Assembly: GCF_000186865.1 (NCBI RefSeq)
Contig: NW_008705561.1
Location: forward strand, 1,607,703 to 1,671,702
Direction: 5' to 3'
DNA: 64,000 nt
Source: Aureococcus anophagefferens
Taxonomy: Eukaryota; Sar; Pelagophyceae; Pelagomonadales; Pelagomonadaceae
Shown here piece after piece: positions 14,842 through 49,975 of the stretch. The notes under the pieces were generated by a model. That model was not told the DNA's origin and did not search any database. It saw only the letters and a list, made by a program, of their open reading frames with translations. The position numbers and the translations under genes were made by a program. The stretch's first letter is position 1; every line of letters starts with the position of its first letter.

Positions 14842-17800
14842 TCACGCCTTGACGAGCTTGAGCATGTAGATGTTGGCGATGACGGAGAAGAGGAGCGCGC
14901 CGCCGAGCATCCAGGCGGCCTCGCGGTAGAAGAAGGACTTCGGCTTCCGCGGGCCGTCGGCGTCGGCGTCGCGGCCGCCCCGCGCGCCGCGGCCGCCGCG
15001 GCCGCGGCCGCCCCCGCGGCCGCCGCGGCCCCGGCCGCCGCCGCGGCCGCCGCGGCCGCCGCCGCGGCCGCCCTTGCCCTTGCCCCAGGCGCCGCCCTTG
15101 CCCTCGAGGAAGAGGGCCCGGCCGCCCTGGCGGTAGGCCGCGACCTTGGCCGTCGCGTCGTCGTCGCCGCCGCGCGCGGCCGCGAAGACCGCCTCCGCGC
15201 CCGCCGGGTCGTCGAGGCCCGCGTGCTGCGCGTAGAGCGCGAACTTGGCCCGCTTCACGGCCTCCGTCGCGACGTCGTCGTCGTCGCGCCAGGCGCGGAT
15301 GACCTGCTTCGCGTCGTCGACCGTGATCTCGAGGGCCACGGCCAGCGTGCCCGGCCGGAGGTGCGGCGGCCGGCGGCCCGGCGGCGGCAGCGTCTTCTTC
15401 ACGAAGCCCGCGGCCGCGGAGTCCCGGAGCCGGCCCAGCGTGTGGAAGAGCCGCAGCGCGTGCTTGTCGCCGCGGTCCCGCGCGGCGAAGAGGTCCGCCG
15501 ACGCCGCGAGCGACAGGCCCAGGGCCTTGGCGACCGCGTCGACGTCGAAGGGCGCCGCCGCCGTCGCCCGCAGGCTCGCCTGCTTCTTCCGCAGCTCGAG
15601 GCCCGAGTTCTTCTTCTTCGGCGACGGCGGCGACGACCCGGGCTGCGACGCCGGGATCACGAGCGCCCCCTGGCCCGCCGCCGTCGCCTGCTTGAAGCAC
15701 TTGCGGTAGAACGCGTCGCGGTCGTCGTCGGCCGCGCAGACGAACGCCGCGGGCAGGCCGCTCCAGACCTCGCCCCCCGGCACCGTCTCGCCCTTGAGGA
15801 CCTGGGACCCCTGGACGAGCACGCCGCAGGGCTCCATGGTCGCGCCGGGCATGCACACGGACTCCGCGCGCATGGAACAGCCCGCGCCGATGGACACGGG
15901 CGCGAATTTCACGACCATGTTCTCCACCGTGTGGCACGTGATGTCGCAGCCCTCGCCCGTGGACCCGTAGTCGCCGATGGACAGCAGGTCGAATTCTAAA
16001 ACCGCGCCGTAGAAGAGGCAGCAGTCCTCGCCGATCGTCGCGCCGAGCGCGTTGAGCACCATGGGCGCTAGGCACGTGCCCTGGATCGCGTCCAGGCACG
16101 CGTCCGCGCAGGACCCTAAAGTCATCATGAGCACCCACTTGTGGTGCAGGTCCCCGTAGTACTCCGTGTCGAGCTCGTCGTAGGTGCCGATGACCAGATT
16201 CTTCGCCAGCGCCAGGAACCCCAGATTCCCGAGCTGCGCGCCGACGAAGGCCAGAAACGCCGCGAGGAAGTTGCCCGCGAGGCCGGACCGCGCGTACCAA
16301 AACGCGCCGACGGGCGCGAGCTCGAGCAGCGACTGCACGGGCTCCAGCAGCATGGCCGACCCGGCGCAGAAGAGGTTGAAGGCGTAGAACGTCGCGAAGT
16401 CGCGGTGCGCGGCCAGCGCCGCGAGCACGCGCGCGCGGTCCTTCTCCGGGAGCTTCGACGTGCCCGCCTCGACGTCGCCCTGGTACTTGAGCAGGACCGG
16501 CGCGCCCCGCACCTTGCCCGTGGAGATGGACGTCGCCGGGAAGACGTGGTGCTTGGGCCCGAACGTGCACCTGGGCGGGGAAACGGGTCAAGAGCTCCTC
16601 TCTCGGCCGTTTCCCGCTCGGTTCGGCTGATTTTTGGACGAGCGATCATAGCCCTTTCGAAGCGTGGACCCTTTCTCTGGAACGATCGCGCGCGGAACAC
16701 AGCGAACTTGAATCACCCTTTCCCTGCCCTGAAGGCGCACGTGCCCGTGACCGCGCGCTTCTCGACGACGACGCCGCCGAGCAGCGTGCTGTGGTCCAGC
16801 ACGTTCGCGCCCTCCTCGACGACGATCATCGCGTCCTCCTCCTCGTCGCTCGGGTGGAGCACGACGCAGGACCCGAAGACGACCTCGTCGCCCACGGAGA
16901 TGAGGTCGAACTCGACGCAGTCGAAGAAGTCGATGTTCACGCGCGACCCGATTTTCGCGCCGAGCATGCGGAACTTGGCGCTGAGCAGCTCCGTGTTCAC
17001 GTAGGGCTCCGTCGCGCCGCAGAAGAAGGGGTGGTGCACGAGGCGGTCCAGGAGCCAGCGGCGGAAGCAGTCCGCCGTGTCCGCCGGGTCGCGCGGCCCG
17101 GGCTCGAAGGACCCCACGAAGACCTTCTTCGCGAGCACCGTGAGCACGAAGAAGGTCTCGCACTGGGCGACGCGCGCGACCCAGACGACGGCAACGGCGA
17201 CGACGGCGATCTGGCTGTAGGTCCGCGTCGCCGGGTCGACCAAGGCGACGAGGCCCTCGCACGCCTTGAGCGCCGCGAACGTCGCGCAGCCCTCGAGCAA
17301 AAGCAGGAGCGGCACGCCGACGAGATACTGCGAGACGCGCAGCGCGGTCCGCCGCGCCCGCGGCGTCTTCGCCTTGAGCGGCAGGACGTCGTCCACGGGC
17401 GACTCGAGCGCGGCGCCGCCGACGGACGACAGCCCGTCCAACTTGTGGTCGTCGGGCACGACGCCGCCGGCGCCGAGGCTCGACCGCGGCTCGAGGCGCG
17501 CGCCGGCGCCTAAACCCACGGGCGCGAGCACGAGCTCGCCGCAGTCGACGAAGTGGGGCGCGACGCGCGCGCACGCCCTCGCGCGCGAGTGCGCGCCCAA
17601 CGTCACGAACTTGGGGTCCTCGACCTCGACGCCGCTGTCGAGGACGGCGTCGTCGCCGACGGTGGCGCCGCACAGGCCGTAGAACGTGCCTAACGCCGGC
17701 GTGCCCGCGAGGTAGGTCGCGAGGCATTTCGCCGCGAAACGCGTCGCGTGTTTGGCCGAGAGCCACGACAGGTACTTGGCGCTCCAGAGGGGGATCTTCA

Positions 17801-20800
17801 GCACGAAGGTCGCGGGCACGTCGGGCGCGAGGAGCTGGTTCGCGATGATGGCGATGGCGCAGAGGTAGACCATGGTCATGAGCGTCGCGAAGGGCAGCCC
17901 TAGGAACGCGGCCGCGAGCGCGCCGCCGCGCTGGTAGACGGCCCAGACGACGACGTGCGTCGGCAGGCCGCCGAGCTGGTTCAGCGACAGGGCCCAGAGC
18001 GCGACGCCGGCCTGGCCCGCGATCACCGTCGCGTTCGCCGTCGACGAGTAGCCCTTGAAGGCCCGCCGCGCGTCGTCGGCCGTCGGCGCCTTGCCCGACG
18101 CCTTCTTCGACAGCTTCGGCATCGAGTCCGCGAAGACGGCCAGCGCCTGGATCGTCGGGTGCATGTACATGGCCGTGCCCGGCAGCGACTTGAGGCCGAG
18201 CTCGAGGCGGAGCCGCGTCGTCGCGCGGCCCGCCAGGAGCGAGTTGCCCCCCAAAGCGACGAAGTCGCCGAGCGCGGAGATGGGCGTGTCGTCGTAGCCC
18301 AGGAGCTCCTGCCAGACGGCCTCGATGACCTTCTCCGTGCGGCTCTCGCAGGGCACGAAGTCGCCCTCGCCCATGCCCAGATCCGCGGGCGGCGGCGGCA
18401 GCCGCTTCCGGTCGAGCTTGCCCCGCGACGTCACGGGCATCGCGTCCAACTGGACGACGACGGACGGCGCCGCGTAGGCCGGCAGCAGCTCCTTGGCGCT
18501 GTCCAGGGCCTACGACGCGTGACGGTGACGTTTGTTCCCACCCCAAATCTCTCGAACATCGCCACGTGACGCCGTCCGGGGCCTCCTCGCTCAGCTCCTT
18601 GCTCTCGAGGATCGCGCAGTCGCCCTCCGTCGTCGCGTTCCCGAGGACGACCTGTGGGGCGATAGGTTTCCCGAGCCGAGGGGGGCGATGGTTTCCCGAG
18701 GGGTGGGGTGTTTCCTCTCCCGATCCGCGGCGCGCGTCGTTCAAGTATCGAGTTCCGCGCGGGGCGGCGACGTAGCCGACGAGCTTCGCGCGCGGCGTGC
18801 CCGCGTCGAGGAGCGCCGCGGCCGACGAGCCGACGTCGTGGTGCGCCCGCAGCGCCGCGGCGACGTCGTCGAGCTCGATGCGGAACCTACGTTGCTTTGC
18901 GTTTCCAGGAGGCATGTCCTCTCCGAGGCTCGTTCGGGGGGGGTCGCCCCGGCCGGAGCGACGGAGGCATGTGCTCTCCGAGGCTCGTTCGGGGGGTCGC
19001 CCCGGCCGGAGCGACAGAGGCATGTCCTCTCCGAGGCTCGTTCGGGGGGTCGCCCGGCCGGAGCGACGGATGCATGTCCCCTCCGAGGCTCGTTCAAACT
19101 TTGCATTCTCATGAGGCGTGATACAGACTGGTGTTGCGCACATAGCTAGCGGCTAGCGGGAACTGTCCATCTGATCATGACTCCGATATTTTGAAATCTC
19201 ATTCCATCANNNNNNNNNNNNNNNNNNNNNNNNNNNNNNNNNNNNNNNNNNNNNNNNNNCGAACGAGCCGAGGCGCCCCCCCTCGGCCGAACCCCCGCCT
19301 TCGCGCTGGGACTTCGCGACGTCGGACCCCCCAGATCGAGCCGAGGCGGGCGAATCGGAAAAAAAGAAACGGTCGCTCGACGCCGCGCGGGACCCGCGGA
19401 GCTTGATCTGGCCCACGGCGACGCGGCCGCAGAAGGCGAGGTCGCCCGAGGGCAGCCAGCGCGCGAGGTCGCCCGTCGCGTAGAGCTTGTCGCCGACGGG
19501 CGTCTTCGACGAGACGTAGGGCGACCCCTTGAAGGGGTTCTTGACCCAGGCCTTGGCGTTCGCGTCGGGCAGGTTCACGTAGCCGCGGCACGCGTGGGGC
19601 GCGCCGAAGTGGAGGTGGCCCGGCGCGCCCGCCGGGACGGGGCGCAGCCGCTCGTCGAGGAGGTAGGCCGTGACGTTGTCCATGGGCCGGCCGATGGGCG
19701 GCGGCCGCGCCATGGCCAGCGCCGTGGCCCTGTCCATCTCGTAGTACGTCATGTCCGCCTCCGTCGGGCCGTAGACGTTGTTGAGCTTCGCGCCCCCGTC
19801 GAAGGCCTGGAAGAAGAGCTTCGCCGTCGCCGCGGGCAGCGCCTCGCCGCAGGAGATGGCCACGCGGACCTTGGCCTTGACGCCCGGGTGGTCGCCGATG
19901 AGCGTCTCGCACAGCGCGGCGAGCGCCGACGGCACGAAGCAGCACGCCGTGACGTCGCCCGCGAGCATGATGTCGGCGACGTAGGACGCGAAGCGGTGGC
20001 CCTCGTTGTTCGCGACGACGGTCGTCGCGCCCGTCGTCGGCGCCCAGAACAGCTCCCACTCGGAGATGCCGAAGGTGTACGTCGTCTTCAGGAGCATCGC
20101 GTCCCTGCCCGCCTTCAGGGGGTAGAGGCGGTCGAACCACGCGATGCGCCGCACGAGGCCCCGGTGCTCGACGGCGACGCCCTTGGGCTTGCCCGTCGTC
20201 CCCGACGTGTAGAAGATGTAGACGAGGTGGCCCGGCGTCGTCGTCGGCGCGCGCGCGCCGGCGCCGCAGTCGTCGCGGTCGCCGCCGCCGAAGACGTCGA
20301 GGCCGCCCGCGTCGTCGGCGCCGAACTTGAGGGGCACGACGGCCTGCACGACGGCGGGCAGCTCCACGGACCCCTCGCCGAGGAGCGCCTTGAGCGGGCC
20401 GTCGACGAGGCGCTGCTGGGTCACGACGACGGAGCAGCCCGCGTCCTCGACGACGGTCTTGATGCGCTCGAGCGGGTAGTCGGGCTCGAGGGGCACGTAG
20501 CAGCCGCCCGCGGCGAGCGCGCCGTAGACGCCGACGACGAGCGACGGGTCCCGCTCCAGCAGGAGCGCGACGGGCGCGTCCGGCCCCAGGCAGCCGAGCG
20601 CCGCGAGCCGCGCCGCGAGGACGGCGATCGCGGACCCGAGCGCGCGGTACGTCGTCTTCGCGAGCGCGAGGTCGTACTTGAGCGCCGCGGCCGTCGGGTG
20701 CTTGCGCGCCGCCGCGAAGAGCAGGTCGTGGATGCAGCTCTTCTCCGGCCAGGGCCGCTTCGTCTCGTTCGCGGCCAGCAGCGTCGCGCGCCGCTCCGCC

Positions 20801-22096
20801 TCCGAGTCGAGCGCGACGTCGCCGACGCGCGTCTTCGCGAGCTTGGACGCGTCGCGCGCCGCGAAGGCGCAGAGCATGCGCCGCGTCTGCGCGAGGAGCC
20901 GCCGCGCCGTGTCGCGCGAGAACAGGTCCGCGCGGAACGTCAGAAGCAGGCACGGTTTGCCGTCGACGGCCTGGAGGCCGAGCTCGAGGTCCAGGGGCGC
21001 CGCCGCCTTGCCGCGCCGCTTCTCCGGCGGCGCGCCCGCGGACGCGAGGCCCGCCTGGTAGAGCGGGTGGAACGACTTGTCGACGACGGTCTTCGTCGCC
21101 TTGACGATGGCGTCGACGGACTCGAAGACGGACGCGCGCGCGACCGTGAGCGCCTCGCGCGTGCCGTCGAGGCGCGCCAGCAGGTCGTCGCCGGGCGCGC
21201 AGACGACGGCGACGGCGATGCCGTCGACGCCGAGCACGACGGTCTCCTGGCGCGCGTGGAGGCTCAGGACCTGGGCAGCGAAAGGGTGAAAAATTCCCAA
21301 CTTCAAAGGCTCCTCTCTCGGCCGTTTTCCACTCGTTTCGGCTGATTCTTGGACGAGCGATCATCTCTCGGAGCGCTCTCGAAGCGTCGGTGCTGTTTCC
21401 GAAACGCGCGCGCGCGGAACAATCACGTTGAAGCGACGTGAATCACCCTTTTGCTGCCCTGCTCAGGACGGACGCGAACGCCGCGAGGAGCGTGCCGAAG
21501 GAGAGCGCCGACGCGTCGACGTCGGGGCCGTCACCTAGGGGTAAAGTGGAGTATGGCGGGCGAACGGGGCGCGCGTCGGATTTTGACGGCCTCGCTCTCG
21601 AGCCGCGCCAGCGCCATTACTCTCGAGCCGCGGCAGCGCCGGCACTCTCGCCGACGAGAGCACCGGGGGCGGACTCTCGCCGCGAGCGGGGCGCGCGTCG
21701 GATTTTGACGGCCTCACTCTCGAGCCGCGCCAGCGCCGGTACTCTCGAGCCGCGCCAGCGCCGGTACTCGAGCCGGCGAGCACCGACTCTCGCCGCGAAC
21801 GGGGCGCGCGTCGGAAGCGTCGTCGTCGAAACACCCCGGCGATCAAAGGCCGCGCCGCCGTCGACGGGCGCGTCGTCCTCGCAGGTCTCGACCTTGAAGT
21901 TCGTCGACCGCGCGAACTCGAGCGGCAGCTCGAGAAGCCGCGGCGCCTCGACGAGGTTCGCGTCGAGCGAGTCGAGGCCGTCGTCGCCGCCGCTCTTCGA
22001 CTCGCCCTGGCCGCCGCCGAAGGACTTCTTCTTCGCGTTCTTCTTGGCATTCTTGCTCTTGCCGTTGTTGTTGGCGGGCTCCAGGGCGTCGAACAT
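14842..22096 (-). CDS. Membrane NRPS resembling poly-amino-acid synthetase (partial C, A, T, three TM/beta-helix units)
   Basis: The model complement(join(14842..16570,16741..18509,18571..18651,18772..18886,19394..21270,21470..21534,21835..22096)) totals 5898 nt, 1965 residues, all phases matching. Order: a short condensation-like N terminus (LLELPLEFARSTNFKVE, LSFGTLLAAFASVLSLHARQ) without an HHxxxDG motif; a complete adenylation domain at about 290-837 (YIFYTSGTTGKPKG, NNVYGPTEADMTYYE, YATGDLARW, GQIKLRGFRIE, SRGKLDRKRL); a carrier domain with LGGNSLLAGR (Ser for phosphopantetheine); then three membrane-helix groups alternating with three hexapeptide beta-helix domains (LCGATVGDDAVLDSG, MLGAKIGSRVNIDFFDC, ALGATIGEDCCLFYG). 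This is the architecture of bacterial epsilon-poly-lysine synthetase. The tail is Gly/Arg-rich and ends in a further hydrophobic helix. In the A domain the usual Asp of FDxS is Gly (FGISEWELFW), so the substrate is open. Two introns are introner elements. Confidence 0.85.
16571..16740 (-). mobile_element. Introner element 1 (intron of the NRPS gene)
   Basis: A 170 bp intron. In gene sense it begins GTGCGCCTTCAGGGCAGGG and ends CGCCCAG; the exon resumes GTGCACGTTC, so the flanking direct repeat (GTGCGCCTTC / GTGCACGTTC) supplies the donor GT. Removing it joins VTGTC to TFGPKHHVFPATSISTGK in frame. The interior shares GGACGAGCGATCAT and CGCGCGCGGAACA with the other copies. It is the shortest and most diverged of the five. 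Confidence 0.85.
18905..19105. repeat. Minisatellite, about 55 bp unit, four copies, inside an NRPS intron
   Basis: CATGTCCTCTCCGAGGCTCG and then TTCGGGGGGTCGCCCCGGCC recur at about 18914, 18969, 19021 and 19074 with small changes. The array lies within intron 18887-19393 and adjoins an assembly gap, so its real copy number is unknown. Unit-to-unit divergence and lack of spacers exclude CRISPR. Confidence 0.85.
19210..19259. other. Assembly gap (50 N)
   Basis: Exactly 50 N within the NRPS intron 18887-19393. Exonic sequence resumes on each side with matching phase, so the gap need not hide coding sequence. Confidence 0.99.
21271..21469 (-). mobile_element. Introner element 2 (intron of the NRPS gene)
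   Basis: 199 bp. In gene sense it starts GTCCTGAGCAGGGCAGC and ends GCTGCCCAG, and the exon resumes GTCCTGAGC: a perfect 9 bp direct repeat that provides the donor GT. Terminal inverted repeats AGGGCAGCAAAAGGGTGA / TCACCCTTTCGCTGCCC. Removal joins LAAFAS to VLSLHARQE without changing frame. Inserted in reverse orientation relative to elements 3 and 5 when judged against transcription. Confidence 0.92.
21585..21800. repeat. Short repeat cluster in NRPS intron
   Basis: CTCTCGAGCCGCGCCAGCGC and variants recur about five times, mixed with GGGGCGCGCGTCGGATTTTG copies, all inside the 300 nt intron 21535-21834 (GTGTTTCG...CCCTAG). Simple local amplification. Confidence 0.7.
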
Positions 22097-23565: not shown

Positions 23566-26500
23566 TCAGCCCTTGCGCTTGTTGGAGCACATGTCGTGGT
23601 CGCCCGGGCAGAGGCCGTCGCCGCCGTTGGGCGGGCGGCACACGCCGTTGGACTTCTTGACGCAGAGGAACTCGTCCTCGGCGTCGGCGCCGTTGTAGAA
23701 CGCGGAGCAGGCGCAGGTGGTGCCCGTCCAGTCGTCGTCGCCGCCGCCGTAGACGTACGAGTAGGAGAAGGAGAACGCGTCGTCCGTCGACGACCAGTCG
23801 ATCGTCGGCGCGAGCGTCGGCTTGTCGGACGGGCGCGAGGAGGGCTTGGCCGACGGCTCGGGCGTGGGCGCGGGCGTCGGCGAGGACGTCGGCGCGGGCA
23901 TCGGCGAGGACGTCGGCGCGAGCGTCGGCTTGGCCACGGGCTTGGCCGTGGGCTTGCCCCACGTGTCGTCGTCGTCCTCCCAGACGTAGCTGAAGGAGTA
24001 CGAGCCCATGCCGAAGTGGTCGTCGTCGCCGAAGTCGAGCGCCGACGGCGCGGGCGTCGGCGCGGGCGACGGCGCGGGCGAAGGCTTGGCGGACGGGCGC
24101 GAGGAGGGCTTGGACGTCGGCGCGGGCGTCGGCGAGGACGTCGGCGCGGGCATCGGCGAGGACGTCGGCGCGAGCGTCGGCTTGGCCATGGGCTTGGCCG
24201 TGGGCTTGCCCCACGTGTCGTCGTCGTCCTCCCAGACGTAGCTGAAGGAGTACGAGCCCATGCCGAAGTGGTCGTCGTCGCCGAAGTCGAAGCTAGGGCG
24301 GGCCGACGGCTTGCCACTCGGCGCGTCGGTGGCCGTGCCCGTCGGCGCGTCGGTGGCCGCGGCCGTCGGCGCGTCGGTGGCCGCGGCCGACGGCGCGGCC
24401 GACGGCGCGTCGGTGACGACGATGGCCGTGGGGCGCGCCGACGGCGTGCTCGTCGCGATGCCCGTCGGCGCGGCCGACGGCGCGGGCGTGAGCTTGGCGA
24501 CGGGTGCGGCCGTCGGGACGAGCCAGTCGTCGTCGAAGTCGTAGCTGTACGACGCGCCGAAGGAGTCGTCGTCGTCATCCGACTCCCAGTACGAGCTGGG
24601 CGCCGGGGTCGGCAGCGCGTCGCGCGGAGGATCGTCGCGCGGCGGATCGTCGCGCGGAGGATCGTCGCGCGGCGGGTCGTCGCGCGGCGGGTCCGTCGCG
24701 ACGGCCGTCGGCGCCGCCGTCGGGTTCGCCGAGGGCGAGCCCGTCGCCGCGGCCGACGGCGAGCCCGTGGGGGCGGACGTGTCCGCGCCCGTGGGCGCGT
24801 CGGTGGCCGCGGCCGACGGCGCGGCCGACGGCGGGTCCGTGACGAGCGCCGTCGGCGCGGCCGAAGGCGTCTCCGTGGACGACGAAGTCGGCGCGGGCGA
24901 CGGCGCGCCCGAGGGCGCGCCCGTGGGCGCGGCCGACGGCGCGCCCGTGGGGGCGGCCGTCGGGGCCGCGGACGGCGCCGGGGACGGCGCCTCCGTGGGC
25001 GCGCCCGTGGGGGCGGCCGTCGGGGCCGCGGACGGCTTGGCCGACGGCTCCTCGGTCGGCCCAGCGGTTGGCTTCTCCGTGGGCGACGCCGTCGGCGACG
25101 CCGTCGGCGCGCAGGCGTCGTCGCATGTCTGCGGGCACGCGTCGCGGGCCGACACCCCGGCCTTGGACTCGCGATCGCAGCGGCTGTTGGGCTTCTCGGC
25201 CACCCACGCGCAGGTGCGGGCCTTCCTGGTGCCCTCGTACCACGTCGTCCAGTCCTCGCAGACGCCGGAGGGCGCGGGCGTCGGCACGGCCGACGGCTCC
25301 TCGGTCGGCGAAGGCGTGGTGGGCGCGGCCGAAGGCCGCGGCGTGGGCGCCTCGGAGGGCTTCTCCGTAGGCGCGGCCGACGGCTTGGCCGTCGGCTTCT
25401 CCGTAGGCGCGGCCGTCGGCTTCTCCGTGGGCATCTCCGTCGGCTTGGCCGTGGGCTTGGCCGTCGGCGCCTCGGAAGGCTTGGCCGTCGGCGCCTCGGA
25501 AGGCTTGGCCGAGGGCTTGGGCGTCGGCGCGTTCGACGGCGCGGGCGTCGGCGAAGCGCTGGGCTTGGACGTGGGCGCGGGCGTGGGCGCGGCCGACGGC
25601 TTGGCCGTCGGCGCGGCCGACGGCTTGGGCGTCGGCCGCGGCGTGGGCCGCGGTGTAGGACGCTGGGTAGGACGCTCCGTCGGCGCGGGCGACGGCGCGG
25701 GCGACGGCGCGGGCGTCGGCGCCTCGGAGGGCTTGGGCGTCGGCGCCTCGGAGGGCTTGGCCGTCGGGCGCGGCGTAGGCTTGGGCGTCGGGTTCCGCGT
25801 AGGGCGATCCGTGGGCCGATTGGTGGGAGCCGGCGTGGGATTGCGCGTCGGCGCGGGCGTCGGCTGACGCGTAGGACGAGGCGTCGGATTCCGCGTCGGG
25901 CGAGGCGTCGGGGGCTCGGCCGCCCCGCCGTTCATGACGCACTGGACGAACTTGTCCGCGTCGGTCATGCCGATGCCTACGAAGAGTGACGATAAACAAG
26001 TTTCTCCACCCCCCAAAAAAATCTCAACACACCGCTTCTCACCGAGCTTCTCCTCGTAGTCGGGGTTGAGGTCGTCGATCGGCATCGCCGTGTCGTACGC
26101 GCAGGACAGCAGGCCGTCGCGCGGGAACGTGATGTCGACGGCCATGCCGAGCGCGAGCATGCCCGCGACGTGCGGCGCGGCCATGGACGTGCCCGACGCG
26201 TAGCCGTAGGTCGACCCCGTCAGAGTCGAGTAGACGCTGACGCCCGGCGCGGCGATCTCGATCCAGTCGCCGTAGTTGGAGAAGTCCGCGCGGACGCCCG
26301 AGTTCTTGACGGCCGCGACGGCCACGGCGCCCTCGTAGTAGCCCGGGTAGTACGCGCTCTCCGAGTTGCTGTTGCCCGCGGCGAAGACGACGATGCCGCT
26401 CTTCGCGTTGTAGTAGTCGATGGCGTTGAGCACGGACTGCGAGTAGGCGCCCGGGTTCGTGTAGCCCCAGGAGTTGGACGAGATCTGCGCGCCGTTGTCC

Positions 26501-28503
26501 GCGCCGTAGAGGAGCGCCTCGGCGAAGCCGCCGTTGCGCGTCTTGCCGAAGCCGACGGAGACCATGAGCTTGGCGCCCGAGTTGGCGGAGCCGTCGCCGC
26601 CGGCGACGCCCGCGACGCCGACGCCGTTGTTGCTGTCGGCGGCGATGGTGCCGCCGCAGTGCGTGCCGTGCCAGTGGTCGCCGATGAGGTCCGTGCCCGT
26701 GTCGTCGGCGTGGTTGTAGCCGTGGCAGTCGTCGACGTAGCCGTTGAAGTCGTCGTCGACGCCGTTGCCGCAGATCTCGCCCGGGTTCGTCCAGATGTTC
26801 AGCTGGAGGTCCGGGTGGTCGAGCTCGATGCCCGTGTCGAGGACCTGGACGACGACGTTGGGGTCGCCCGTCGTGAGGTCCCAGGCTTCGCGGAGGTTGA
26901 TGGCGTCGTAGTGCGACTGCGTGTTGAGGCCCGGGTCGTCGGGCGTGAAGGACGTCGCGTAGTCGAGCTCGGGCTCTACGATGACGACGCCGTCGTGCGC
27001 GTCGCTGTCGAGGAAGCGGCGGAGGGCGTCGTAGACGCTCTGCGAGTCCGCCACGGCCTTGTACTGGCGCGCCGCCGCGAGGCGGCGGCCGGGCCGGCCC
27101 GGGCAGCTGTCGCACGCGACCGGGCACGCGGCGCTCGCGGGGACCTTGGCGCGGGACTCGAAGGCGCAGTACTTCTCGGGCTTCTTGGCCACCCACGCGC
27201 AGGTGCGGGTCGTCTTCTTGCCCTGGTACCACGTCGGCGAGTCCTCGCACGGCGCCGCGTCGCCGACGTCCGCCGGGCAGGCGTCGCAGGCCTCGGGGCA
27301 GGCGACGCTGGCCGTGACGCCGTCCCTGGACTTGATGGTGTCCTTGCAGCGGCTCTTGGGTTTCTCGGCGACCCAGGCGCAGGTCTTCGACTTCTTCGTG
27401 CCCTGGTACCACGACGGCGAGTCCGCGCACGACGGCTCGTCCTCCGGCGCCGGCGTGGGCTTCGGCGTGGGCTTCGGCGCGGGCTTCGGCGTGGGCTTCG
27501 GCGTGGGCTTCGGCGCGTCGCCGACGTCCGCCGGGCAGGCGTCGCAGGCCTCGGGGCAGGCATCGCTGGCCGTGACGCCGTCGCTGGACTTGATGGTGTC
27601 CTTGCAGCGGCTCGCGGGTTTCTCGGCGACCCAGGCGCAGGTCTTCGACTTCTTCGTGCCCTGGTACCACGACGGCGAGTCCGCGCACGACGGCTCGTCC
27701 GCCGGCGCCGGCGTGGGCTTCGGCGTGGGCTTCGGCGCGGGCTTCGGCGCGTCGCCGACGTCCGCCGGGCAGGCGTCGCAGGCCTCGGGGCAGGCGACGC
27801 TGGCCGTGACGCCGTCGCTGGACTTGACGGTGTCCTTGCAGCGCTTCGCGGGCGACTTGCCGACCCAGGCGCAGGTCTTCGAGTTCTTCGTGCCCTGGTA
27901 CCACGACGGCGAGTCCGCGCACTTGTTCACCGGCCCGTCCACCGGCTGGGACCGCGACTCGTCGGCGGCGGAGTCGTCGCCGTCCGCCGGGCAGGCGTCG
28001 CACGCCACGGGGCAGGCGACGCCGGCCGCGACGCCGTCCTTGGACTGGACGGTGTCCTTGCAGCGGCTCGCGGGTTTCTCGGCGACCCAGGCGCAGGTCT
28101 TCGACTTCTTCGTGCCCTGGTACCACGACGGCGAGTCCTCGCATTGCTCGGACGGGTCGCCCTCGACGGGGCCCTCGGCCTCGCACGCGACCTCGTACCA
28201 GAGGTCGAGGCCGAAGGCGGCGTGGGCCGCCTCGTGCTTGCCCGCGTGGCGGAAGACGCGCGTGGCCTCGCCGTCGCAGCCGAGCGCGTCGACGACCTTG
28301 GCCGTGACCGCCGCGGCGTCGCCGCGCTTCACGAGCGCGTCGTCGCCGTCGAGCTTGAAGAGCACGTGCGACCCGAGCGCGCCGACGGCGGCGTCCTCGG
28401 AGAGCTTCTCCATGTCGAGCGAGTCCTCGAGGCGCCGCCGCGGCGGCGCGCCGAGGCGCGCGGCCGCGACGGCCGCGACGAGCGCGTACGCGACGGCGCG
28501 CAT
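23566..28503 (-). CDS. Secreted subtilase with Cys modules and Pro/Thr repeats
   Basis: The model complement(join(23566..25976,26043..28503)) gives 1623 residues; the 66 nt intron is GTGAGAAG...CTTCGTAG. Signal peptide, then an I9-like prodomain (SHVLFKLDGDDALVK, VFRHAGKHEAAH) interrupted by five tandem Cys modules at about 119-464 (CEDSPSWYQGTKKSKTCAWV, SRCKD, ACPVACDACPAD). The prodomain then resumes (HDGVVIVEPELDYATSFTPD). The peptidase S8 domain has the full triad: Asp in VLDTGIELDHPD, His in HWHGTHCGG, Ser in ASGTSMAAPHVAG, plus oxyanion Asn in AAGNSNSE. Then come several hundred residues of (P/A)PT(x)KP repeats with a sixth Cys module (CEDWTTWYEGTRKARTCAWV), PPRDD repeats and two copies of an acidic/aromatic block (DFGDDDHFGMGSYSFSYVWE). 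It is probably a cell-wall or matrix-associated endopeptidase, self-activated by prodomain cleavage. Its closest relative here is the gene at 31536. Confidence 0.9.
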   Translation of the reverse strand: MRAVAYALVAAVAAARLGAPPRRRLEDSLDMEKLSEDAAVGALGSHVLFKLDGDDALVKRGDAAAVTAKVVDALGCDGEATRVFRHAGKHEAAHAAFGLDLWYEVACEAEGPVEGDPSEQCEDSPSWYQGTKKSKTCAWVAEKPASRCKDTVQSKDGVAAGVACPVACDACPADGDDSAADESRSQPVDGPVNKCADSPSWYQGTKNSKTCAWVGKSPAKRCKDTVKSSDGVTASVACPEACDACPADVGDAPKPAPKPTPKPTPAPADEPSCADSPSWYQGTKKSKTCAWVAEKPASRCKDTIKSSDGVTASDACPEACDACPADVGDAPKPTPKPTPKPAPKPTPKPTPAPEDEPSCADSPSWYQGTKKSKTCAWVAEKPKSRCKDTIKSRDGVTASVACPEACDACPADVGDAAPCEDSPTWYQGKKTTRTCAWVAKKPEKYCAFESRAKVPASAACPVACDSCPGRPGRRLAAARQYKAVADSQSVYDALRRFLDSDAHDGVVIVEPELDYATSFTPDDPGLNTQSHYDAINLREAWDLTTGDPNVVVQVLDTGIELDHPDLQLNIWTNPGEICGNGVDDDFNGYVDDCHGYNHADDTGTDLIGDHWHGTHCGGTIAADSNNGVGVAGVAGGDGSANSGAKLMVSVGFGKTRNGGFAEALLYGADNGAQISSNSWGYTNPGAYSQSVLNAIDYYNAKSGIVVFAAGNSNSESAYYPGYYEGAVAVAAVKNSGVRADFSNYGDWIEIAAPGVSVYSTLTGSTYGYASGTSMAAPHVAGMLALGMAVDITFPRDGLLSCAYDTAMPIDDLNPDYEEKLGEKRCVEIFLGGGETCLSSLFVGIGMTDADKFVQCVMNGGAAEPPTPRPTRNPTPRPTRQPTPAPTRNPTPAPTNRPTDRPTRNPTPKPTPRPTAKPSEAPTPKPSEAPTPAPSPAPSPAPTERPTQRPTPRPTPRPTPKPSAAPTAKPSAAPTPAPTSKPSASPTPAPSNAPTPKPSAKPSEAPTAKPSEAPTAKPTAKPTEMPTEKPTAAPTEKPTAKPSAAPTEKPSEAPTPRPSAAPTTPSPTEEPSAVPTPAPSGVCEDWTTWYEGTRKARTCAWVAEKPNSRCDRESKAGVSARDACPQTCDDACAPTASPTASPTEKPTAGPTEEPSAKPSAAPTAAPTGAPTEAPSPAPSAAPTAAPTGAPSAAPTGAPSGAPSPAPTSSSTETPSAAPTALVTDPPSAAPSAAATDAPTGADTSAPTGSPSAAATGSPSANPTAAPTAVATDPPRDDPPRDDPPRDDPPRDDPPRDALPTPAPSSYWESDDDDDSFGASYSYDFDDDWLVPTAAPVAKLTPAPSAAPTGIATSTPSARPTAIVVTDAPSAAPSAAATDAPTAAATDAPTGTATDAPSGKPSARPSFDFGDDDHFGMGSYSFSYVWEDDDDTWGKPTAKPMAKPTLAPTSSPMPAPTSSPTPAPTSKPSSRPSAKPSPAPSPAPTPAPSALDFGDDDHFGMGSYSFSYVWEDDDDTWGKPTAKPVAKPTLAPTSSPMPAPTSSPTPAPTPEPSAKPSSRPSDKPTLAPTIDWSSTDDAFSFSYSYVYGGGDDDWTGTTCACSAFYNGADAEDEFLCVKKSNGVCRPPNGGDGLCPGDHDMCSNKRKG
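23872..24289. repeat. Intragenic direct repeat, offset about 248 bp
   Basis: Positions 23872-24041 and 24120-24289 are nearly identical and encode the duplicated acidic/aromatic block and surrounding Pro/Thr repeats of the subtilase C terminus. A recent in-frame duplication. Confidence 0.85.
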
Positions 28504-29157
28504 CTGGTTGTTGTTGCTTTTGGGAACCTCCCGGTATCACAGCACCGCGTGGAAGCGGGCTCTTGCTGAAGACCCGCGGAGCGGGTCGGTTGCTTTGATG
28601 CCGGGAAGCCCCGGCTTGTGGGCGTCGAGGTAGAGCTCGACCTGTGAAGGTTGGGGGGTGATTCGGGTCGTCCGGTTCGGGCGAGTCGATTCCGGGGGCG
28701 CCCGGGGGGACCGGGGCATCGAGCGCCCGGTGTTCTTTCTCAGGCTTCAAGTCGGGCCGATTTCGGTCGAGGAAGTTCGGCCCGGTCCTCGCGCGCCCGG
28801 AGCGGCCCGTTCCTCGAGCAGCCCGTGACCGAGCCCCCCGCGCGCCCGGGGCGGCGCGGGGGGGACCGGGAAGAGGCGCCCGCGGGAGTTTCGGGCCCTC
28901 GAACGTGCCGAGGGTTCTTCGGGGCGAGGTCGGGCGGTTCTCGGCGGTTCCGGGCTCAGTTCTCGCGGTTTTTTTCTCCGATGTTAGTGGTGGCTCTCGT
29001 CGAGCGTATGCGACGGGCGAGAACCGGCATCATCCCCGAGGCGGGCGAGGGCGACCGCGTGATTATGACGCTGCATGCCCACAAGGACTCCCGTGCTCAG
29101 GAGACTGCCTGGAACAGGGCTCCTCGCCGGGATGGGGGGGTTGGCAGCCAGTGCCCC
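28504..29157. other. Upstream region of subtilase gene, no gene seen
   Basis: GC-rich spacer containing repeated GGCCCG(T/G)TCCTCG motifs at about 28774-28815. Frames that are open here lack family resemblance. Confidence 0.4.
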
Positions 29158-31535: not shown

Positions 31536-32561
31536 TCAGTTGAACTCGGAGCACACGCAGCCGCACGCTGCGGACGCGCGGACGCCGTCGATGTCCTTGG
31601 ACTTGCAGCGGCTCTTCGACGCGCCCTTGTTCGCGATCCATTCACAGCCCCTGTTCTTCTTCGTCTTGCCCTTCTTCGCCAAGCGCCAGTCGTCGTCGTC
31701 GGCGCAGAAGCCGAGCGGCGTCGGCGCGGGCGTCGGCGCGGGCGCGTAGTACTGGTCGCAGGCGCAGCACGCGTCGCGCGCGCGGACGCCGGCCCCGTCC
31801 TTGTAGCGGTCGCAGCGGCTCTTCGAGTCGCGGCCGTCGAGCCACGCGCAGTCGCGGTTGTCGCGCTCGCGGCCGCGCGAGTAGTGGCGCCACGACGCGT
31901 CGTCGACGCACGTGCCCTCGTCGGCCGTGGGCGCGGCGACGGGCGCGAGGGACGGCTTCGGCGTCGTGGGCAGCGCCGTGGGCTTGGCCGTCGGCGCGGG
32001 GTGCGGCGCGCGCGTCGGCTCCTTGGACGGCGCGGGCGTGGGCTCGGGCGACGGCGCGGGCGTCGGCCGGGGCGTGGGCTGGGGCGTCGGCTGGGGCGTC
32101 GGCTGGGGCGTCGGCTGGGGCGTCGGCTCCGGCGTAGGGCGGGGCGTCGGCCGGGGCGTGGGGCGGGGCGTCGGGCGCGGCGTCGGCGCGTTCGACGGCG
32201 CGGGCACGGGCGCTAGCGACGGCGCGGGCACCGTCGGCCGCGGCGTGGGCGCGGGCGCGGGCCGGGTCGTCGGCGCTTGCGACGGCGCGGGCACCGTTGG
32301 CCGCGGCGTGGGCGCGGGCGCGGGCCGGGTCGTCGGCGCGTAGGGGTCGTCCGCCGTGGGCGCCGCGACGGGTAGCGCCGTCGGCGACGGCGCGGGCGCG
32401 GCCGTCGGCGACGGCGCGGGCAGGGACGACGGCGCGGGCGTCGGCAGGGACGACGGCGCGGCCGTCGTCGGCTCCGGGGACGGGTGGGACGTGGGCGGCG
32501 ACGACGGCGCGGCCGTCGGCGCCGGGGCCGGCGCGGACGTCGGCGCGGCCGACGGCGCGGC

Positions 32562-32600
<39 letters not shown>

Positions 32601-34460
32601 CGCCTCGGGCGCGACGAAGTCGAGGGAGAAGGACGCGCCGAAGTCGCCGCCGGACGCGAGGACGACGCCGTCGAGGCTCAGCGAGAACGACCCCGCGCCG
32701 TAGCCGCAGCAGATGCCGTCCCCGAAGGAGTCGGCGAGCTCGAAGGTGTAGGCCTGGCCCGGGCAGATCTGCGTCGCGATGACGACGGCCCCGTAGTCGA
32801 AGTTCGCGTCCGCGTAGCCGCCCGACGTCGCGGACGCGTCTTCGCAGTTGTCCGGCGCGGACGCGTCGAGCGCCAGGCTCCAGGACGTCTCCGCGGGGTA
32901 CGAGTCCGTGACGAGGGCGAGCTCGAGGACGCCGTCGCAGGGCCCGCAGCCGGCCGTCGGCCGAGCGGTGGCCGTCGGCGCGGGCGACGGCGCGGCCGTC
33001 GGCGCGGCCGTCGGCGCGCGCGTGGCCGTCGGCGGCTTCGTGTTGGCGAGGTCCGCCGCGCAGTCGACGAAGGCCTTGGCGTCGATCATGCCGGAGCCGA
33101 GCTGGCCCGGGTAGCCCGTGTTCGAGTCCGCGATGTCGATCGACGTGTCGTACGCGCAGGAGAGCAAGGCGTCGCGGGGGATGGCCGCGTCGATGGACCA
33201 GCCGAGCGCCAGGACGCCGGCGACGTGGGGGCAGGCCATGGACGTGCCGCTCGCGTAGCCGTAGTCCATGCCGTGCGTGTACGTCGAGTAGACGCTCACG
33301 CCCGGCGCGGAGATCTCGATCCAGTCGCCGTAGTTGGAGAACGACGCGCGGACGCCGGAGTCGTCGACGGCGGCGACGGCGACGGCGCCCTCGTAGAAGC
33401 CGGGATAGTAGTCCTCGGCCGAGTTGCTGTTGCCCGCGGCGAAGACGACGATGCCGTTTTGCGCGTTGTAGTAGTCGATGGCGTCGAGCTCGGCCTGGCT
33501 CCAGAAGCCCGGCGCCGTGTAGCCCCAGGAGTTGGAGCTAATCTGGGCGCCCATGTCCGCGCCGTAGGTCAGCGCCTCGGCGAAGCCGCCGATGTTGCCG
33601 TTGTTGCCGAAGCCCACGGAGATCATGAGCTTGACGCCCGAGTCCGCGGCGCCGTCGCCGCCGGCGACGCCCGCGACGCCGACGCCGTTGTTGCTGTCGG
33701 CGGCGATGGTGCCGCCGCAGTGCGTGCCGTGCCAGTGGTCGCCGAGGAGGTTCGCGCCCTCGTCGTCGGCGTGGTTGTAGCCGTGGCAGTCGTCGACGTA
33801 GCCGTTGCCGTCGTCGTCGACGCCGTTGCCGCAGATCTCGCCCTCGTTGCGCCAGATGTTCAGCTGGAGGTCCGGGTGGGCCATGTCGATGCCCGTGTCG
33901 AGGACCTGGACGACGATGGACGCGTCGCCCCGGACGACGTCCCAGGCCTCGGGCATGCGAATCGCGTCGTAATGCGGCTGCGTGCCGAGGAGGGGGTCGT
34001 CGGGCGTCCAGGAGAGGGCGTGCTCGAGCTCGGGCTCGACGACGACGACGCCGTCGTGGTCCGCCTCGTCGAGGAACTTGGTCAGCGCGTCGAAGGTCTT
34101 CTTCGCGGCCGCGGCCTTTTCCGGCGCGCGGCTGCAGCGCACCGCGTACCAGTCGTGGAGGCCGGCGGCGACGTGCTTCGCCTCGTGCTTGCCCGCGGGG
34201 CGGAAGACGCGCACGGGCTCGTGCTCGTCGCAGTCGAGGTCCGCGGCGACGCGCTTGGCCAGCGCCTCGCGGTCGCCGGACTTGGCGAGCGCGTGCTCGC
34301 CGTCGACCTTGAAGAGGACCCGGGAGCCGAGCTCGCCGTCGCCCGCGGCCTTGGCGAGCTTGACGAGGTCGAGGTCCGCGCCGAGGCGGCGGCGCTCGGT
34401 CGGGCGCGCGGCGGTGGCGCAGAGCAGCGCGGCGAAGAGGATCTGCTGGAGGCGGGTCAT
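31536..34460 (-). CDS. Secreted subtilase with Pro/Thr-repeat linker and C-terminal Cys modules
   Basis: 974 residues, single exon. The start at 34460 is chosen because MTRLQQILFAALLCATAARP is a signal peptide; the open frame further upstream looks like 5' UTR (His/Pro-rich). Prodomain 40-175 (SRVLFKVDGEHALAK, VFRPAGKHEAKH, HDGVVVVEPELEHALSWTPD) is uninterrupted. Peptidase S8 triad: VLDTGIDMAHPD (about 188), HWHGTHCGG (about 242), ASGTSMACPHVAG (about 406), oxyanion Asn in AAGNSNSAE. A beta-rich domain with C..C...DSFGDGICCGYG follows, then a run of 12 Asp (GTC microsatellite on the plus strand), long PAPTP repeats and two C-terminal Cys modules (CVDDASWRHYSRGRERDNRD, CADDDDWRLAKKGKTKKNRG). 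Extracellular endopeptidase, paralogue of the gene at 23566. Confidence 0.92.
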
Positions 34461-35042
34461 GGTCTGGTGCGTGCGGTGGTGGTGGTGTTGTGGTGGTGGT
34501 GGGTGGGGTGCTCGTGCGAGGCGAGCTTGCGGGGTGGTCCGAGTGTCGAACCTTGCGGTGGAATGGCGGTGTGGTTGCGTTTGCTTTGGGCAATGCACGA
34601 GGCAATTGCCGGGTAGGAGGCCATCGTGGGACAAGTTCCCGGCGGACGGCCGTTTGGAACTTCAATGAAAAGATGTTCGATTTTCATACATATTCCCTCC
34701 GCTCGCATTTTTTCCCGGGGCCAGCGTGTCGCGGAGCAGCGAGCCCCTCCCTCGAAGCTCCCGCCCGCCGCCGGCCCCGCGCGTCCCCGACGCGCCGGGC
34801 GACCGAAACACGAAGCGATCGCGAGCACGGAGCTCGGAGCTCGTCACGGAAGGCAACCCCGCGGCGGGGCTCCTTCACGACCCAACGACACCAGAAGGGT
34901 GATGTGAATGGGATGTTTTACATTCGAGCGTCGCGTCGCCACGCGGCGCTCCTCGCGGGGAACGAAGCGGAGACTCCCGCCGCGGCGCCGGGGGCGCCGC
35001 GTCGGTCGTCGGGTAAGGTGGGGCGCGTCCGCGGCGGGACGC
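34461..35042. other. Intergenic between subtilase and eS28
   Basis: Upstream side of the subtilase carries a GT-rich tract (GGTGGTGGTGTTGTGGTGGT at about 34480-34500) corresponding to a CA-rich 5' UTR. No gene seen in the remainder. Confidence 0.4.
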
Positions 35043-47924: not shown

Positions 47925-49441
47925 GATCAACGTACATCTAGGCCGGGGTCAACCGATTTTTTCTGACAAAGTTTACAACATTTTTAACCGAGAATTACAA
48001 AAATACCAGTTAAACTTCAGACAACACACCTAAAATTGACGCAAAATATGACAAAATTTCTCACCTAAAATTTACACATTTTTGATCTTAATACCCTCCC
48101 AGAATAGCCATATGTCTCTTTTGTAGGGACAAAATCGCCATATTACACACATTTTAGCCCAAAATACCATTTTTTTCCGGATTGCCATTTTACACCCCAA
48201 TCTATCATTCCCAAAAGTTACCATTTCTCTCACGTGTGTCCCAAAATCGCCAAATTTGGGCCTCTCTGTCATCCCAAAATCGCCATTTTGTTCGTGTCAA
48301 TGGATATTTTAAGGGATTTTTGTGTCTCCCTTGAAAATAGCACTCAAATGTCGTAGAAAACAAGGAGATAATTATTTAAAAAACCTACATATAGGACTAA
48401 AACAGGAAATGACACTTCAACATCTGTTTTTTGGAAAGCAGAGCAGTGTTCCTTGACAACATAACGTCTCCCACATTCGATTTAACTTTCCCATCAGAAT
48501 TACTATGATTTCATTCTGGGCAATGACTCCTCCATCCGGCAGGAATCAGCACGCACTCTGGCGCGACTTCTAGTTGTGAACTCACCCACTCAGGGCATCT
48601 TGCTCACGAAAACACAATTATGCGTTCAAGGGGTCAATTTTAACCATTTTTCTCCTAAATTAGCCAAAAAATACATAAATTCGCCTTAAATTAGCAAAAA
48701 ATAGCGAATATTACCAAAATGACCAAGATTTTGGTCAAAAATACAATTACGCAAAGTACAGTTTGTCAGTAAATTAACATACTTCAATAAGCCGATGTTT
48801 ACCTTACTAAGAAATTGACCAAAAAAACAAGCAATTTCGAGCAAATTTAGGCCATTTTCGTGAGAATAATGACCCCAAAACGTGAAATGCATTTTTTTCA
48901 TACATTTTTGTCATTAATTTTCCATCGAACTTCAACAAAATCGTTCTAGGGAACGCGAAAACACCCTTAGGATTATTATTATTATTATTTTGTATTTAGC
49001 GTCGGGGAAGCCGCATGCACAAGAGCACACGCGGCCTATAGGTCCCGGACGGAAGAAGTTGAAGTAGGCGGGGCAGCTGCCCCCCAGCAGGGGCCGGAGG
49101 CCCACGGATTTTACACTATAATCCTCCCTACCCTAGGCCGGCCCATAGGAATAATTAATAATTAATTAACAATACAGTTCGGCCCGGCGCAGCCAGAGAG
49201 GTTCCCCCAACGTTCCCCCAGCCGGGACGTTTCACCTGACTTGCAGTCAGGCATTTTCGCGCTACAGAGAGCGTTTAGCGCATAGGAGATGGTAACATTT
49301 CCCAACCACCTAGGAGGCGGTTCACTGGCAGCGAGATCCATTAGTCGTCCATAGAGGCTGTGCATCGACCGCGCGCGCGTCGACCGTGCGCGCGTCGATC
49401 GCGCGGTGAAATCGCGGCCAAAATTCGTTTATGGTCGTATC
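47925..49441. mobile_element. AT-rich mobile element, 1.5 kb, no intact gene
   Basis: Starts GATCAACGTACATCTAGG and ends TTATGGTCGTATC, both shared with 29158-29341. The interior 47945-48990 is strikingly AT-rich for this genome and built from degenerate copies of a CCCAAAATCGCCATTTT-like unit. An ATT microsatellite (48973-48990) and a GC-richer segment with a TAATAATTAATTAACAATAC stretch follow. Open frames are under 100 codons with no recognised transposase or polymerase, so it is probably non-autonomous. Its right edge coincides with the left edge of the duplicated cassette at 49440. Confidence 0.7.
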
Positions 49442-49619
49442 GACGCGAAGACCTTCATGTCCTTTGACGGCGCCGTGGGCACGCGCAGGCCGCGAGCCGC
49501 GCGGGGCAGGCGCAGCCGCCGAGGCACGTCGCGTTCGTCGGCCTGTGCACGTCCCAGGACGGATCGTCGACGGCGGCGACGGCGCGCGCGAGCAGCAGCG
49601 TCGCAAGGCCCGCCAGCAT
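49440..49619 (-). pseudogene. Truncated 5' fragment of the secreted glycosyltransferase-like gene
   Basis: Reads MLAGLATLLLARAVAAVDDP and TCLGGCACPARLAAC like the gene at 52529-53806, then shifts frame at a 2 bp insertion and is cut off by the mobile element at 49440. Not a functional gene. Confidence 0.85.
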
Positions 49620-49932
49620 GCCTACAGCTGTATAGGGGCCATCGCAAAATGCCACTGGAGTGTCCACTGGCCGCCATTATTCGCCATCGGCCGCCGGCGC
49701 GCCGCGCCGCCCCCCCCCGGCTGCCTCGAGACCCCGGCGAGCCACTCGATCCTCGTGGACGCGGCTAGACGGCAACGCCGGCTCGGCGCCTCCGAGTCGG
49801 CAACACCCGCCCGGCCGGCTGGATGATGCGATGGCTCATCGCAGCGATTGTGCTCGCCCGCTTCGCCGATAGCTCGTCGTGCTCCGTGCGGGACCCGCGG
49901 AAGAACGACTCGCCGGCGAAGCGCTCGAAGCA
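49440..49932. repeat. Duplicated bidirectional promoter cassette (copy of 53629-54119)
   Basis: 493 bp, near-identical and in the same orientation as 53629-54119, 4.19 kb away, with a 2 bp insertion near 49483. It contains the first codons of a minus-strand gene, the 0.2 kb bidirectional promoter, and the first 36 codons of a plus-strand sulfotransferase-like gene. Identity stops abruptly at GAAGCA (49932). Confidence 0.93.
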
Positions 49933-49975
49933 TGAGGTGCAGTGCGAGGGCGCTCGCCGCCAGAAGACGCGATGA
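49823..49975 (+). pseudogene. Truncated 5' fragment of a sulfotransferase-like gene (possible upstream ORF)
   Basis: 50 codons. It matches the start of the gene at 54010 (MMRWLIAAIVLARFADSSSC) for 36 codons and then continues into unrelated sequence. Its TGA stop (49973-49975) overlaps the ATG of the next gene (49972) as ATGA. Confidence 0.8.

Follow-up and report, generated by a model that had tools for sequence, protein, structure and literature searches.

The minus strand of a 64,000-nucleotide stretch of the Aureococcus anophagefferens genome (contig NW_008705561.1; hereafter the window) encodes, at positions 14842–22096, a membrane-embedded synthetase of 1965 amino acids that is related to the epsilon-poly-lysine synthetases (Pls), enzymes of the nonribosomal peptide synthetase (NRPS) type in which an adenylation (A) and a carrier (T) domain precede a large terminal membrane domain. 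We regard the structure and kinship of this enzyme as firmly established. In its A domain, and in those of its clade, the two acidic residues that bind the substrate amines in the relative PosA are lost, and the substrate probably lacks the usual amino-acid handle. We tentatively propose a hydroxy acid that would be joined by ester bonds at the membrane.

Domain architecture and the conserved histidine

Three membrane-helix groups had been claimed to alternate with three beta-helix domains, and this arrangement was recovered. The first helix pair (17817–18047, residues ~955–1031) was placed from an orthologue, using hydropathy and the orthologue model, and is followed by left-handed beta-helix (LbH) 1 (17430–17687, ~1075–1160), which was located by its TIGR02353 match and the same model. 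Helix pair 2 (17124–17342, ~1190–1262; hydropathy and orthologue model) leads to LbH 2 (16480–16976, ~1312–1420; TIGR02353 and orthologue model), which is split by intron 6. Helix pair 3 (16204–16404, ~1446–1512) was seen in the orthologue model and in a model of exon 7, and LbH 3 (15745–16056, ~1562–1665) corresponds to TIGR02353 positions 520–695 and was also present in the exon 7 model.

The AlphaFold model of orthologue P0003 (723 residues, 25 sequences) had a pLDDT of 87.8 and a pTM of 0.89 and consisted of long helices in three pairs and of three LbH domains, so the structure-prediction check for three Pls-like domains was passed on this orthologue. The authors of the PosA study described the same three-pair, three-beta-helix arrangement for their model (PMC10522769). 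The TIGR02353 profile matched the spliced window protein with E 5.4e-45, which indicates homology, although the score of 153.9 bits lies below the 423.1-bit cut-off; P0003 (158.6 bits) and another relative, P0005 (256.9 bits), also fall under it, and the Streptomyces control P0055 scored 824.5. The matches in a structure list from VIA-align fall chiefly on a single beta-helix of the model and do not speak to whether the fold as a whole is new.

The exon 7 model (pLDDT 71.8, pTM 0.47) contained helix pair 3, LbH 3, a helical tail and a last helix; the tail helices at 401–480 of the modelled piece were locally confident, but their placement was not. The tail domain (15100–15606, ~1712–1880) has a similar counterpart in P0001–P0003, and profile scans of exon 7 gave no family match for it. 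An apparent internal repeat was also observed there. The Gly/Arg-rich tail and seventh hydrophobic helix of the preliminary description are both present, the former as a low-complexity stretch of the spliced model at 14968–15087 (~1885–1924) and the latter at 14851–14916 (1942–1963; hydropathy and exon 7 model). By eye, a last helix resembling the seventh helix is also found in P0001–P0003.

Among 33 terminal domains of algal, bacterial, fungal and polyketide-type proteins, a single alignment column holds histidine in half or more of the sequences, and it corresponds to H1603 of the window protein (CHTVENM, 15931–15933). Histidine occupies this column in 32 of the 33; the exception, P0016, was mis-sliced, and its sequence contains CHTVENM. 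A looser regular expression for the motif matched all 17 clade proteins and 43 of 54 others, with 11 left unmatched. H1603 is putatively catalytic. The context of the histidine varies by group (CHTVENM, THLFEDR, AHINSRG or GHDFSNM), and we would guess that a switch from Asp-Arg to Asn-Met behind it fits an altered acceptor.

The front half of the protein is that of an incomplete NRPS module. No Pfam match at E ≤ 1 was obtained for the N-terminal 286 residues. The region ahead of the A domain aligns to the LgrA segment just before the second LgrA A domain, and the relatives P0004 and P0012 match the Condensation profile only at 190–433 and 187–434 of its 456 positions. We take residues ~50–262 (20812–21949, interrupted by introns 1 and 2) to be a condensation-domain C-lobe, and accordingly read the condensation-like N terminus without HHxxxDG that had been described as a partial, C-lobe-only domain. 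Of 13 family proteins scanned, the window protein among them, 12 had no HHxxxDG match, and the sole match (P0009, position 1916) lies inside the esterase part of that protein. The A domain core spans 19579–20718 (residues 294–673), and its C-terminal subdomain runs on over exons 4–6. Its assignment is borne out by the profiles AMP-binding (E 1e-65) and TIGR01733 for amino acid adenylation (325.2 bits, cut-off 317.4), and that of the carrier domain (18138–18329) by PP-binding (E 1.1e-8). What we take to be the A-domain motifs (YTSGTTGKPKG, YGPTE, TGDLARW, RGKLDR) and the carrier motif LGGNSL, with the phosphopantetheine serine S890 (18240–18242), are intact. These the enzyme shares with a canonical NRPS elongation module, which would, however, be expected to have a condensation domain with HHxxxDG.

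The substrate pocket and the clade that shares it

Pocket positions were numbered by alignment to the core of GrsA. The alignment comprised 49 rows; eight of 57 sequences, including clade members P0011 and P0013, were dropped because they lacked an anchor motif. The window pocket reads G-I-W-C-I-C-V at positions 235, 236, 239, 278, 299, 301 and 322, with G510 (position 235) and W514 (position 239) in the motif FGISEWE (20056–20070). Position 235 is Gly in 14 and Ala in one of the 15 alignable clade rows, and position 239 is Trp in 13 and Phe in two. The pair Asp235 and Glu239 is kept in 31 of the 34 other rows and lost from all 15 clade rows; the remaining three outsiders are acyl-ligase-like, two of them retaining Asp without Glu. 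A quick recount of the proteins by regular expression was too loose, miscalling at least one clade row, and the alignment counts are preferred. In PosA, the residues Asp217 and Glu221 are reported to bind the alpha- and the side-chain (delta-) amine, respectively, and mutants of either were without activity (PMC10522769).

The change is specific to the clade in a wider set of 408 A domains, which included GrsA and the domains extracted from 117 further matches to the A region of P0004. Position 235 was Asp in 388 of these, Gly in 14, Ala in one, Val or Ser in four and a gap in one, and Gly or Ala was confined to the clade of the window protein. The closest sampled A domains from outside the clade have 38–42% identity to the window A core and, in 19 of 19 cases among the matches listed for it, carry the code DVWH(F/I/V/M)SL(V/I)D, which we take to be that for serine. 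Among the matches listed for P0004 and P0005, the same holds for 22 of 22 and 19 of 22, respectively, and the other three neighbors of P0005 deviate in one or more letters. Trp239 is common to serine-type domains and the window protein, which differs from them by Asp235 to Gly, His278 to Cys, Ser301 to Cys and a shorter loop: its A5 loop, GPTEADMT (19747–19770), is read as two residues shorter than the serine-type GPTEAAVDVT. The spacing from GPTEA to TY, in a gapped reading, is two residues shorter in all 12 clade rows printed. Two A domains in the set have VDWV(I/A)SLAD, presumably the beta-alanine code; this substrate was rejected for the window enzyme, which has Ile and not Asp at 236.

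According to a review, a loop shortened by one residue accompanies beta-amino acids, which still use Asp235, whereas two alpha-hydroxy-acid A domains have a small aliphatic residue at this position, Ala in an engineered TycA and Gly in EnSynA1; exceptions to the Asp235 rule are acknowledged there (PMC11253843). Gly510 fits the small-aliphatic rule stated for alpha-hydroxy-acid domains, and it is for this likeness that a hydroxy acid is proposed as the substrate. An alpha-keto acid is less likely, given that the GPTE proline is retained in the window protein; in the sole crystallised alpha-keto-acid A domain, one conserved proline is reported to have given way to another residue (PMC11253843), and by our own residue count this would be the GPTE proline.

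Relatives were collected by a search with the terminal region, in which scoring was limited to the 7983 candidates that had the most words in common, and which yielded 56 proteins. Three are full-length orthologues with 47–48% identity (P0001 from Chrysophaeum taylorii, P0002 and P0003). Thirteen more (P0004–P0016) have 29–37% identity; four come from a eukaryote transcriptome set, one from Aureococcus and one, P0005, from a 4.8-kb contig labeled as a Rhodospirillales metagenome-assembled genome (MAG), an origin that is either real or due to mis-binning. Three of the 13 are encoded on contigs of 0.66–1.95 Mb. All other relatives score far lower, beginning with Pls-type proteins at 2.6e-36; the top named matches are at 6.3e-29 for fungi (Schizophyllum) and at 4.7e-20 for bacteria (Streptomyces). 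Seven of the 17 clade members (the window protein, P0001, P0007, P0008, P0010, P0015 and P0016) have a named algal or eukaryote transcriptome origin, and on this part of the membership the clade appears mainly eukaryotic. In a tree of 34 terminal domains, the 14 clade rows form one group (Shimodaira-Hasegawa-like approximate likelihood ratio test, SH-aLRT, 99) beside three fungal proteins (98); this was a quick tree, not bootstrapped, in which the polyketide group has long branches.

Six clade members (P0004 and P0006–P0010) have a carboxylesterase-like domain fused behind the Pls-type domain. The serine motif of carboxylesterases is GESAG, and these domains read GQGSG, GQGSS, GQASG or GQGTA at that point; the nucleophile has probably been lost, and neuroligins offer a parallel of a catalytically dead esterase-like domain. 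The fusion was therefore rejected as support for ester bonds. Bacterial gene neighborhoods gave no clue to the substrate: a contig scan with CHTVENM and GPTE[AG]D[MV]T[YF], which finds only matches to these patterns and leaves absence unproved, returned 22 stretches with a single relative, a partial sequence of 34% identity from a Desulfobulbaceae MAG.

Gene structure and the terminal domain elsewhere in the genome

The spliced model gave exactly the 1965 residues of the single frame described before, although its seven exons (22096–21835, 21534–21470, 21270–19394, 18886–18772, 18651–18571, 18509–16741 and 16570–14842) are separated by six introns and not by the seven junctions first counted. 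All introns have GT...AG borders, and intron 3 contains a 50-base N gap (19210–19259). Retention of four of the six would introduce a stop codon; intron 4 (120 bases) is open, and intron 5 (61 bases) would shift the frame. The spliced model reads VGYVV across the intron 4 junction, as does P0001, and the domain order is that of P0001, P0002 and P0003. P0003 itself (1873 amino acids) is encoded on a contig of 5893 bases, genomic or RNA-derived, and because this leaves only ~270 bases to spare, both halves form one polypeptide there almost without splicing assumptions.

Introns 2 (21271–21469) and 6 (16571–16740) are of a type that we take to be introner elements, with further copies in the window at 60713–60863, 61402–61593 and 63109–63296. 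Intron 2 has 83–89% identity to these three copies and 76% to intron 6, which has 74–80% identity to the same three. By eye, exon sequence repeated at the insertion seems, in the synthetase gene, to supply the 5' GT.

Across the genome (49 Mb, 86 contigs), TIGR02353 matched nine places at E ≤ 0.001, none of them above the cut-off; weak matches mean little, since 13 of 14 control genomes also gave matches at this threshold (one above the cut-off). A paralogue of the synthetase lies on contig C5; over its four main segments it matches A. anophagefferens JL722_2429 at 89–99%. The other stronger matches scored 142, 112, 94 and 81 bits, on contigs C17, C8, C2 and C1, and each belongs to a frame that terminates in a Pls-type domain. 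The frame on C17 is KR-ACP-ACP-ACP and lies at the contig end; that on C8 is KR-ACP, with the C-terminal part of a KS and an AT in the adjoining frame; that on C2 is KS-AT-KR-ACP; and that on C1 contains carrier domains downstream of N-masked sequence. The C2 polyketide synthase (PKS) is near-identical to A. anophagefferens P0058 (branch lengths 0.0019 and 0.023). On C3, weak TIGR02353 pieces adjoin FAAL-type frames (exons unjoined), and the weak single matches on C11 and C26 may be ordinary hexapeptide proteins.

A gene cluster around the synthetase was considered and rejected on the nearby frames with a Pfam match, which are subtilases, a dual-specificity phosphatase, SET, CXC, MORN, UBA and methyltransferase frames and two marginal ones; seven of the 18 frames scanned had no Pfam match. 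The subtilase (Peptidase_S8) frames lie on the minus strand at 23569–28536, with a PT-type disordered repeat, and at 31539–34661. GC content is 50.7% at 48001–50000 and 65–78% in the other 2-kb steps of the window.

Proposed mechanism, alternatives and known systems

We envisage a synthetase of one module, embedded in the membrane and folded as Pls is. Its A domain would adenylate a small carboxylic acid that lacks an alpha-amino group, for which a hydroxy acid is the likeliest candidate, and would load this acid onto the T domain. The three-fold membrane domain, which has a single histidine center in LbH 3, would then transfer the acyl group to a hydroxyl, giving an ester-linked oligomer or an acylated membrane-borne acceptor; the side of the membrane on which this would happen is conjectural. 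Taken whole, from a substrate other than an amino acid to ester linkage at the membrane, this mechanism is a tentative proposal to which we give somewhat less than an even chance. In its favor, beside the pocket and the histidine, is an Aureobasidium A-T-C-like transmembrane enzyme that is reported to make a polyester, polymalate (PMC9210645, PMC11905612); this enzyme, which we compared by description only, is described as eukaryotic, with six spans and no thioesterase. A review, however, places its membrane spans in the N-terminal part, which lowers the likelihood of a polyester reading for the window enzyme. The A domain also scores above the cut-off of an amino acid adenylation profile, which counts against the proposal.

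A broader version, which we consider rather doubtful, is that in a mainly eukaryotic clade a serine-type A domain was re-tooled for a hydroxy acid by loss of Asp235 and shortening of the loop, to make an ester-linked polymer in or through the membrane; such a membrane domain also terminates PKSs of this alga. If true, algae would make an ester-linked polymer with machinery that bacteria use for poly-lysine. This would be a testable substrate switch, in a harmful bloom (brown-tide) alga, among enzymes known as makers of amino-acid homopolymers. That a single genome places one kind of membrane domain after an NRPS-like enzyme and also after PKSs bears on the general working of the Pls terminal domain.

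The strongest alternative is a single, non-iterative acyltransferase that moves the loaded acid, amino or not, once to a membrane lipid, sugar or protein, adding a cap or head group and making no polymer. The terminal domain also ends the PKS frames on C2, C8 and C17, as a general release or transfer domain might, and among the proteins with one beta-helix in the structure lists, most are single acyltransferases. PosA and Epichloe Epls, two relatives of the same layout with reported products, nevertheless polymerise (PMC10522769, PMC7179176), and we see this alternative as a serious possibility, if a doubtful one. The homopolymer or amide product first suggested, a polyamide made as by Pls with an unusual pocket, is unlikely. 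It draws on the shared layout and homologous terminal domain, which stand, on the Asp in the A5 loop, on the TIGR01733 score and on the exceptions to the Asp235 rule (PMC11253843); its amino acid is weakened, however, by the Gly/Trp that replaces a PosA Asp/Glu pair absent from every alignable clade row, each residue of which PosA needs for activity (PMC10522769). Much less likely still is a zwitterionic substrate that has no free amine (glycine betaine or dimethylsulfoniopropionate, for example), recognised by the aromatic residue that all 15 alignable clade rows have at 239; glycine betaine A domains are known in ATRR enzymes (PMC11050029), but Trp239 also belongs to the serine-type code and needs no such explanation. 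That two genes, an A-T part and a beta-helix part, were wrongly fused by the spliced model on which their joining would rest is scarcely credible, given that a single open exon encodes the T domain together with most of LbH 1 and LbH 2, that P0003 has all parts on its 5.9-kb contig and that P0001 and P0002 have the same order.

The synthetase is best compared with the Pls/PosA family (TIGR02353), which comprises epsilon-poly-L-lysine synthetase and the delta-poly-L-ornithine synthetase PosA and makes isopeptide homopolymers. In this family an A-T unit likewise precedes three pairs of membrane helices, six in all, and three beta-helices (the three-dimensional part, for the window enzyme, by way of its orthologue). 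The comparison with Pls made in the preliminary description stands for layout, fold and homology; it does not extend to the profile score, which stays under the family cut-off, or to the diamino-acid pocket, as the family holds its substrate through Asp235 and Glu239 where the window protein has Gly and Trp. The family also has a histidine in the third beta-helix, set in THLFEDR or similar in bacterial-type rows and in CHTVENM here, and the window enzyme adds the half condensation domain, the helical tail and the seventh helix. A eukaryotic Pls-type synthetase is real here but is no novelty on its own: the fungus Epichloe has an epsilon-poly-lysine synthetase of Pls layout, Epls, the lysine pocket of which, lost in the window enzyme, is reported to be conserved with bacterial Pls (PMC7179176). 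Algal use of the same kind of terminal domain is also on record, with polyketide or fatty-acid front ends unlike that of the window enzyme: type I fatty acid synthases of Coccomyxa have an NRPS terminal domain at their end (PMC3446292, section 9), and LbH domains occur on Chrysophaeum PKSs (PMC10366177), which we infer belong to the same terminal-domain family. The Chrysophaeum paper counts nine NRPS genes (PMC10366177), of which P0001 may be one. With a eukaryotic Pls-layout enzyme and algal fusions of the terminal domain already in print, the window synthetase is a variant of a known enzyme type.

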